A stretch of DNA of 34,358 bases from Halobacteriovoraceae bacterium (lineage in GTDB: Bacteria; Bdellovibrionota; Bacteriovoracia; Bacteriovoracales; Bacteriovoracaceae), in NCBI GenBank assembly GCA_002706205.1, contig PAKC01000059.1:1-34358 (forward strand), read 5' to 3'. Below the pieces are notes generated by a model, which searched no databases, was not told where the DNA came from, and worked only from the letters and a program-made list of their open reading frames with translations. Position numbers and translations under genes: made by a program. This document shows positions 6,386 through 23,694 of this stretch, in pieces (within the stretch, counting starts at the first letter, position 1; each line of letters begins with the position of its first letter).

Positions 6386-7129
6386 TTAAGGTAAATATGC
6401 TCCCCCACATACAGGTATATAAGTTCCAGTAATATGAGAACTCTTTTGGCTCGCTAAAAATCCTACAATATTAGCGACGTCTTCTGGAATCGCAATTTTT
6501 TGAGTTGGAGTCATAGACCTAATATATTCTTTAAACTCATCAGGAGCTTGTTTTGTTGCATCTGTAAGAACAAGGCCAGGGGCAACAATATTAGATGTTA
6601 TTCCCAAAGCTCCAAGCTCTACTGCTAAATACTTATTGAGACTATCTAAAGCTCCTTTTGCCGTACCATGTGCGATAAATGTTGGGGCCGGACTTTCAGA
6701 CAAAGTACTAGAGATAAAGATCAATCTTCCGTAGTTTTTTTGCTGCATACTTTTAGCTGCAAATTTTGCAGTCATATAAGAAGCATGAACCTCGTCATTT
6801 AATTTTTGAGAAAACTCTTCCCATGTTTGTTCTAAAAAAGGTTTAGGTGTAAAGCTCATATTAGCATTTGAAACTAAAATATCGACACCACCAAAGTCTG
6901 CTTCAATTTTTCCAAACATAGCTTCTATCTGAGCATCAGCTCTTACATCTGCTTGAATAGCATAAGCTTCTCCCTTATTTTTTTTGATCTCATCAACCAA
7001 ATCCGCTGCCGCCTGAGAACTCTTAACATAGTTAATGAAAACTCTATCTCCATTTGCAGCTAACTCTTTAGCAATTGCGGCACCAATGCCCCTTGCTCCC
7101 CCTGTAATAAGTGCGTTTTTTTGTGTCAT
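6386..7129 (-). CDS. SDR family oxidoreductase (FabG-like)
   Basis: MTQKNALITGGARGIGAAIAKEL (Rossmann TGxxxGIG); NAG-like motif replaced by SNAN; catalytic-region S/Y is unusual (HGTAKGALD in place of YxxxK). Start moved 8 codons inside the ORF (7153) to the MTQK start. Confidence 0.85.
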   Translation of the reverse strand: MTQKNALITGGARGIGAAIAKELAANGDRVFINYVKSSQAAADLVDEIKKNKGEAYAIQADVRADAQIEAMFGKIEADFGGVDILVSNANMSFTPKPFLEQTWEEFSQKLNDEVHASYMTAKFAAKSMQQKNYGRLIFISSTLSESPAPTFIAHGTAKGALDSLNKYLAVELGALGITSNIVAPGLVLTDATKQAPDEFKEYIRSMTPTQKIAIPEDVANIVGFLASQKSSHITGTYIPVCGGAYLP

Positions 7130-7178
7130 TTTTATACTCCAATTAAAGTGCATTGTTATTATCCTAAAAATAAGTTAA

Positions 7179-7209
7179 AGTATAAAACCTCAAGTTAACT
7201 TGAGGTCAA
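7179..7209 (-). promoter_or_regulatory. SoxR box inside a MerR-type promoter driving the SDR gene
   Basis: Perfect 18-bp palindrome CCTCAAGTTAACTTGAGG at 7188-7205. On the minus strand TTGACC (7204-7209), 19-bp spacer, TATACT (7179-7184), the long spacer typical of MerR-family targets. Confidence 0.88.
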
Positions 7210-7217
7210 GGGAAAAG

Positions 7218-7670
7218 ATGAAAAAAACTGACCTTAAAAAAGAATTTCTTTCAGTAGGTGAACTGGCGACAAGAAGTGGTGTCGCCATTTCCGCCATTCA
7301 CTATTACGAATCAAAACAACTTTTGCGATCTTTTAGAAACCAAGGGAATCAAAGGCGATTTCACAGAAGAGAACTCAGAGTTTTAAGTTATATAAAAGTC
7401 GCACAAAAAATTGGACTAAGTCTTGATGAAATTAAACAAGCCTTTAAAACAATTGAAAATAAAAAACGTCCCAATACTGATGATTGGAAAAAGCTAGGAA
7501 AAAACTGGGAGAAAATCCTCACAAAAAAACTTGAAATTATTCAAGAAATGCAATCCCAATTAGATAAGTGTATCGGCTGTGGCTGTCTTTCTCTAAAAGA
7601 CTGCCCTCTTAGAAACCCAAACGATATCCTTTCAAAAAAAGGAAGTGGAGCTCATTTATTAAACTCATAA
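7218..7670 (+). CDS. soxR: redox-sensitive MerR-family regulator SoxR
   Basis: N-terminal MerR HTH (LSVGELATRSGVAISAIHYYESKQLL) and SoxR [2Fe-2S] motif CIGCGCLSLKDCPLRNPND; ATG at 7218 rather than TTG at 7200. Confidence 0.93.
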   Translation: MKKTDLKKEFLSVGELATRSGVAISAIHYYESKQLLRSFRNQGNQRRFHRRELRVLSYIKVAQKIGLSLDEIKQAFKTIENKKRPNTDDWKKLGKNWEKILTKKLEIIQEMQSQLDKCIGCGCLSLKDCPLRNPNDILSKKGSGAHLLNS

Positions 7671-8237
7671 AGCACACGAATTACCAAAACGAATAAATTC
7701 GTCCCAAACTTCTGATGGCGATCTAGAAATATTTTCACAAATTCCAGCGCACCCTTTATTTTCAAGTATTCCCAAAGCCTTTAAAGCAAGTTTTTCTTCA
7801 ATAGAACCTGCTACAAAATCTTCTTGGGCCAATTTATCTGCATATCTTTTTTTAATTATTGCTAAATGCTCAGGATGAGCTTCTAATTTTTTCAGGATAC
7901 TTCGATTGAGTTCTTTAGCTGAAGGAAAACGAATTTGATATTTTTTCATCGTTTGCTCAATCATTGCAAGTTTTTCTAGCTGAGATTTCTCTCCTAAACT
8001 TGCTAGTTCTTCTTGCATCTTAACTTGAGTAGATAAGGGTTGTTGATTAATGCGAGAAATTAAATCTAAATATTTCTCCTCAGGTAATGACTGAGTTAAA
8101 CTTTCAATGAAGTCTTGGTTTTGCCCCAGTCCACTTTTTTGCAATGATCTTTGCCCATGACTGGTTAATTTTTGTATTTTTGCAAATTGACCTAACTTTA
8201 AACCTACGGGTACCAAAGCAATATCTGCTGCAGACAT
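7665..8237 (-). pseudogene. probable C-terminal fragment of a larger protein of unknown function
   Basis: The credible part of the ORF starts at MSAADIALVPVGLKLG (8237); upstream codons are antisense to the lipase fragment. No convincing RBS; reads as if starting mid-protein. Confidence 0.5.
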
Positions 8238-8841
8238 GGCCCATATGTTTATGAACTTATCCGAAGAAGAAAAAGCTGGAAGAAGTTTACGTCGAGTGGG
8301 CTCAATAGGAACACCCCATAGAGGAAGTGGAAAATCAATTCCCGGGATTAACAAAACAACCCTTGATATGGCCAAACCAATTCTCCCTAAAAGTATTCAT
8401 AACTTTTTCAATACAGCTTACGAAATGGATAACAAAGAAATGATAGCCTTTAATCAAAAATATCCCAATATTGATGGTGTTATTTATTTTAGTATAACGA
8501 ATCAACAAAGATCCCCTCTTCCAAGAATTATCCCAACAGCAACAAAAAAAGAGATGACTGATGGTCTTATTGCAGGAGAATCATCTCGCTGGGGAGTTGA
8601 AATTAAAATTGATGGTGATCATCCTAGAGGAAATCATATCAACCAAGTTTATAGTGTTGCAGGCAAAGATAAAGCTGCTACCGATAATGGCTTGGCCATC
8701 GTTGAGTTTCTCAAACAAACAGCTCATGGTGAAGCCCCTAAAGATGGTGTTTTTCATTATCAAGTTCCAGAAAACATTCAGTATCGTAGTCCTTCTAAAT
8801 ATAATCAAATGAAATTTATGCTAAATTGTCTTACCAAGTAG
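8236..8841 (+). pseudogene. C-terminal fragment of an alpha/beta-hydrolase lipase
   Basis: RVGSIGTPHRGS and the Asp/His region (KIDGDHPRGNHINQVY) fit bacterial lipases, but the nucleophile GHSxGG and N-terminal half are absent; an in-frame stop lies at 8188; no RBS. Confidence 0.6.
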
Positions 8842-8883: not shown

Positions 8884-9474
8884 ATGAATCACTTTAATCA
8901 AGTTGCTAATGACTGGGATACTCCAGAAAAAACTCAAATGATGAAAGAGCTTGCAAAAAAAACCCAAAAAAGACTCAAGCTTAGTCAAAAAATTGATATC
9001 ATGGACTTTGGAACTGGTACGGGATTATTTGGCTTAGAGTTTCACCCCTATCTTCATACCTTAACTGGAATTGATACATCACAAGAGATGTTAAATGTCT
9101 TTAACAAAAAGACCGAAGCATTTTCTCATATTCAATCGCATCAAATTAATCTTGAGGATCAAAGTCTAGCGAGTAAATTTGATTTAATTATTAGCTCTAT
9201 GGCCTTCCATCACCTCCAAGACCCTAAAAAAGTTCTTATGAAACTCAAAGAAAATCTTAAACAAAATGGAAGAATTGCCATCGTCGACCTCGACCAAGAA
9301 GATGGATCATTTCATCCTGACAATAAAGCCATGGGTGTTAAACATTTTGGTTTTTCAAAGCAAGAACTTCAATATTGGGCCAAACAGGCCAAACTCAATT
9401 TAGACTACCAAATCATCAACACCCTTCATAAAAATGAAACTGAATATCATCAATTTTTAGCGATTTTTTACTAA
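8884..9474 (+). CDS. class I SAM-dependent methyltransferase
   Basis: MDFGTGTGLFGLEF motif I, GIDTSQEML, IISSMAFHHLQDP motif; RBS AAGGAAATATC-ATG. Confidence 0.88.
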   Translation: MNHFNQVANDWDTPEKTQMMKELAKKTQKRLKLSQKIDIMDFGTGTGLFGLEFHPYLHTLTGIDTSQEMLNVFNKKTEAFSHIQSHQINLEDQSLASKFDLIISSMAFHHLQDPKKVLMKLKENLKQNGRIAIVDLDQEDGSFHPDNKAMGVKHFGFSKQELQYWAKQAKLNLDYQIINTLHKNETEYHQFLAIFY

Positions 9475-23127: not shown

Positions 23128-23694
23128 TTAAATTTTCCCTACTAAGTCAAGACCTGGCTTTAATGTCTCACTTCCTGGCTTCCACTTAGCTGGACAAACT
23201 TCATCTGGATTTTCAGCTATAAATTGCGCTGCTTGAACTTTTCGCATCAATTCATCAGCATTTCGTCCAATTCCATTATCATGAATTTCGGCTATCTTAA
23301 TTTCTCCTTCAGGATTAATTAAAAAAGTTCCTCTATAGGCCAAACCCTCTTCCTCAATATGAACACCTAATGCTCGTGTCAACTGCCCTGTAGGGTCTGC
23401 CAACATAGGATATTTAATTTTTTTAATTGTTTCGGAAGCATCATGCCAAGCTTTGTGAGTAAAATGAGTATCAGTACTGACTGAATAAACTTCTACTCCC
23501 ATCTTTTTAAATTCATCGTATTTGTCGGCCATATCTCCTAATTCAGTAGGACAAACAAAAGTAAAGTCTGCTGGATAGAAAAATAAGACAGACCATTTCC
23601 CCGCAAGATCTTTTTCAGTAACAGTATGAAAATCGTCATTTTGATAGGCTTGAACCTTAAACTCTGGTAATGTTGAATTAATTAATGTTTTCAT
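23128..23694 (-). CDS. ahpC: alkyl hydroperoxide reductase AhpC (2-Cys peroxiredoxin)
   Basis: FYPADFTFVCPTELGD and NPDEVCPAKWKPG; adjacent to ahpF; RBS AAAGGAG. Confidence 0.96.
   Translation of the reverse strand: MKTLINSTLPEFKVQAYQNDDFHTVTEKDLAGKWSVLFFYPADFTFVCPTELGDMADKYDEFKKMGVEVYSVSTDTHFTHKAWHDASETIKKIKYPMLADPTGQLTRALGVHIEEEGLAYRGTFLINPEGEIKIAEIHDNGIGRNADELMRKVQAAQFIAENPDEVCPAKWKPGSETLKPGLDLVGKI

Follow-up and report, generated by a model that had tools for sequence, protein, structure and literature searches.

How did two open reading frames on opposite strands come to overlap at their first codons? In the window (the whole stretch of 34,358 nucleotides analysed here, contig C71 of G000, the assembly of a Halobacteriovoraceae bacterium related to marine predatory bacteria), one frame occupies 8236-8841 on the plus strand and the other 7665-8237 on the minus strand, with overlapping ATGs at 8236 (+) and 8237 (-). 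A sequence-only reading had given these coordinates, which hold, and had seen in the pair two N-terminally truncated genes joined at a near-palindrome by inversion, decay or a chimeric join. The host assembly is a draft of 2.9 Mb in 104 contigs and is 92% complete. The features on which the argument turns are as follows.

6386-7670: SDR gene (minus strand) and divergent MerR regulator gene (plus strand), left flank, both intact; a syntenic pair in the relative G013
7665-8243, minus strand: 3' remnant of gene A, ~193 codons of a gene for an exported protein of ~700-740 aa, without start region and signal peptide
8221-8237, no strand: near-palindrome ATATCTGC-T-GCAGACAT, 17 bases, inside gene A
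8236-8841, plus strand: 3' remnant of an alpha/beta-hydrolase (lipase-like) gene, with IGTPHRGS and DG/H motifs, without the oxyanion and GxSxGG nucleophile half
8239-8250, no strand: most likely breakpoint
8884-9474, plus strand: methyltransferase gene, right flank, intact, with a Shine-Dalgarno sequence

Both frames are C-terminal remnants of longer genes

The minus-strand stub aligns to the last ~190 residues of three full-length relatives (blastp and L-INS-i), which come from Bacteriovorax/Halobacteriovorax-type MAGs. One is a 740-aa exported protein of the congener G003, 31% identical to the stub; the others, of 702 and 703 aa, are from G096 and G097, members of the window genome's family. 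The three align with one another over most of their length, and a profile built from them (A4) finds the stub with E=4.5e-38 at model positions 506-688 of 703. The invariant W-A, D, A, P, G, G series common to the three is complete in the stub. Compared with this uncharacterised exported family of 702-740 aa (UBA1852, ARS37, SI075_bin7), the window copy is alike in its C-terminal domain, including W-A, D, P, G, the GILENKGCAGIC stretch and an end of the G-C-x-G-x-C type, but it lacks the ~510-545 N-terminal residues and the signal peptide.

Members of the gene A family occur in a few Bacteriovorax-type MAGs (L006:1512-3734, minus; L026:5340-7448, plus; L027:5163-7274, minus). They have conserved cysteines and a G-C-A/T-G-x-C end, and the G003 member has no Pfam match. 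In G096 and G097, gene A is adjoined divergently by a gene for an exported protein of ~210 aa (L026:4636-5274, minus; L027:7359-7985, plus; 56% identity), possibly a functional partner. The neighbours in G003 differ from those in this pair: there, gene A is divergent from a gene for a 1149-aa exported protein (L006:3828-7277, plus) whose collagen-like stretches are rich in glycine and which matches DUF7932. A neighbour of the DUF7932 type was not found in G000, G001, G002, G096 or G097 and therefore gives no anchor. A match to gene A in G002 lies across other genes, and we set it aside as a chance match.

The plus-strand frame is homologous to the C-terminal half of a hydrolase family. Profile A3, built from six distant full-length relatives, matches 8290-8622 (E=1.6e-11, model positions 109-234 of 265). 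All of the aligned relatives (~254-310 aa) carry the nucleophile half, with G[HQ]SxGG ~20 residues ahead of the IGTPHRGS strand; as had been noticed from the sequence, a GxSxGG elbow is absent from the plus ORF, and it is also absent from its frame upstream to the stop. Alpha/beta-hydrolase lipases such as L003, which matches PF00561, PF02089 and PF07819, align with the stub in the IGTPHRGS strand and the DG, SxxWG and H motifs, but their nucleophile and oxyanion half has no counterpart in it. Lacking this half, the stub is not expected to have the enzyme activity of that family. Order- and phylum-wide genome searches returned only distant homologues, and no close relative was matched in genome contigs, plasmids or viral contigs. 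A PDB sequence search gave one weak unrelated match only, and NCBIfam offered no usable family for either stub. With relatives that are full length and profile matches that are C-terminal only, both proteins are indeed truncated at their N-termini.

No Shine-Dalgarno-like sequence precedes ATG 8236 or ATG 8237, in agreement with the sequence-only reading and unlike many genes of the window (AAGGA before 8884; AAGGAG before the gene starting at 23694). The minus frame remains open as far as TTG 8375, where a GGAG 7 bases before the codon could open it; the 46 codons that this start adds are antisense to the hydrolase and have no convincing match except W-A. Searches for relatives of gene A and of the hydrolase found none that encodes a short form of either protein. 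Both stubs are still stop-free over ~190-200 codons, and the event is therefore either recent or an artefact.

The joint lies beyond the near-palindrome

The invariant W-A of gene A is encoded at 8238-8243, past the palindrome and past ATG 8237. An ATG does stand at 8237, but the minus-strand fragment does not begin there, since its homology extends to the W-A. On the other side, hydrolase homology is clear from 8278-8290 and plausible from 8239, where A-H-M-F can be set against A-R-x-x. Codon-usage log-odds give a modest signal: the minus frame is preferred immediately left of ~8239, the plus frame to its right. The W-A of gene A, the onset of hydrolase homology and the switch in codon usage place the breakpoint most likely at 8239-8250, with outer limits of 8244-8290 if the estimate is restricted to clear homology on both sides. 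A search of the joint found no further repeat, direct or inverted.

Gene A homology runs on as far as the W-A, and the palindrome is therefore internal to the gene and off the joint. Its 8-bp arms with one mismatch are as first described, but such structures are common. The window contains 137 near-palindromes (arms 8+8, at most one mismatch, spacer 0-4) against 94-161 in five first-order Markov shuffles, ~0.44 are expected per 111 bases (the 8190-8300 stretch), and strand folding at this one is ordinary (RNA fold, z = 0.16). The near-palindrome is a chance feature. That SAAD is encoded on both strands, as had been pointed out, follows directly from the palindrome. We therefore rejected the palindrome as the joint: gene A homology crosses it and its density is that of chance. 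A rearrangement mediated by it would place it at the joint and make it rarer than chance, and it is neither, which leaves palindrome-driven recombination, and the template switching initially proposed, without support.

The N-terminal halves are absent from the assembly

An inversion should have left the two N-terminal halves joined head-on elsewhere in the genome. Neither half was found in the 92%-complete assembly by full-length single-sequence and profile queries, and no head-on joint of the two was seen there. As a positive control, the same profiles recovered both C-terminal stubs. Apart from these stubs, the searches returned only unrelated hydrolases and one weak chance match. The nucleophile-half matches that we opened as possible reciprocal products (C69, C19 and C77 of G000) are self-contained unrelated hydrolases of 251-338 aa. 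The match of C96 to the N-terminus of gene A (E=0.0255) is an unrelated peptidase-like ORF with a HEMAH motif.

The flanking genes are collinear in one relative

In G013, the SDR/MerR pair (at ~235 kb; ~70% identity) and the methyltransferase gene (at 248 kb; 57% identity) have the same order and orientation as in the window, which makes it probable that the two sides of the contig belong together. This collinearity was seen in G013 only and not in the ~10 other relatives examined. The gap between the two anchors is 12 kb in G013 and 1.2 kb in the window. The G013 interval holds about a dozen other genes, none of them gene A or a hydrolase similar to the one here. Since the content is wholly different, the interval appears to have turned over, and it is probably a place of gene turnover. 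In none of the relatives did we find gene A paired divergently with such a hydrolase. Tetranucleotide composition on either side of the joint is uniform with that of the remaining genome.

Origin of the joint

Taken together, these results suggest that the joint is probably a deletion scar: one deletion within a variable interval would have cut away the 5' half of each of two divergent genes, so that only two pseudogene stubs remain. In the ancestor, gene A (minus strand) and the lipase-like hydrolase gene (plus strand) would have pointed apart between the conserved SDR/MerR pair and the methyltransferase gene. A single illegitimate deletion, non-homologous or with short microhomology, may then have taken the segment from ~193 codons before the gene A stop to just past the hydrolase nucleophile elbow, so that each gene lost its promoter, its start region and its N-terminal half. 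The two C-terminal stubs that remain would be non-functional, and their first ATGs would overlap by accident. We infer both the former adjacency of the two genes and the single deletion from several observations: the truncations relative to full-length relatives, the absence of the N-terminal halves, the G013 flanks, the lack of Shine-Dalgarno sequences, the codon-usage switch at ~8239 and the uniform tetranucleotides. A gap that goes from 12 kb to 1.2 kb with no change in orientation is expected if intervening DNA was lost without flipping. Against a deletion stand the lack of a relative with the divergent pair, the collinearity with one relative, the open frames of the stubs and the 92% completeness of the assembly, as an N-terminal half may lie in the rest.

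Deletion-derived pseudogene pairs arise in bacterial chromosomes by illegitimate (microhomology-scale) recombination. The window shares with them two unrelated genes cut at a common point, no reciprocal product and no start signals, but it differs in that the event itself is a reconstruction. Decay was among the origins offered by the sequence-only reading, and the meeting of C-terminal remnants of two unrelated genes at one point supports it.

A chimera of assembly or amplification, in which two intact loci were misjoined or an MDA template switch occurred while the organism keeps both genes whole, is unlikely, although the draft state of the assembly and the open frames in both stubs are compatible with it. 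MDA makes mostly inverted chimeras (PMC3842359), but the G013 flanks are collinear and unchanged in orientation. In MDA data, moreover, the main effect of inverted read pairs is reported to be shorter contigs, not misassembled ones (PMC3842359). Intact loci should also have left N-terminal halves on other contigs, where none was found, and the composition is uniform. A real inversion, with one end here and the two N-terminal halves facing each other at the other end, is improbable. Back-to-back C-terminal halves fit one product of such an event, but the assembly yielded no N-terminal half, the nucleophile-elbow matches that we opened are complete other hydrolases, the palindrome supplies no mechanism, and the relative orientation of SDR/MerR and methyltransferase is kept in G013.

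Decay in two steps, by separate 5' losses such as would follow if a mobile element inserted between the genes and was lost imprecisely, would accord with the turnover of the anchor interval; with no repeat seen at the joint and a single deletion being simpler, we regard it as quite improbable. It is hardly credible that the short ORFs are functional, for instance as expressed C-terminal domains, with the minus gene possibly starting from TTG 8375 behind its GGAG. The frames are open, but both ATGs stand without a Shine-Dalgarno sequence, the region of the catalytic serine is missing from the hydrolase, and the gene A stub has no signal peptide, unlike its relatives. In addition, no short-form relatives were found, and 8244-8375 is antisense to the hydrolase frame. 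We likewise give very little credence to a phase-variable or programmed rearrangement, in which intact and truncated alleles of the two genes would switch by recombination within the living population, in a variable island of these predatory-type bacteria.

The result matters mainly for annotation: both ORFs should be entered as pseudogene remnants rather than as two short genes, one for a lipase and one for a hypothetical protein. Biologically, the locus would be a further example of gene loss by deletion in a variable chromosomal interval, an ordinary feature.

The MerR gene (plus strand) and the gene A stub (minus strand) are convergent, with a 6-base overlap at their stop codons (7665-7670). 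The MerR protein ends in a cysteine-rich CIGCGCLSLKDCPL motif, which suggests that it regulates the SDR gene in response to redox state or metals.
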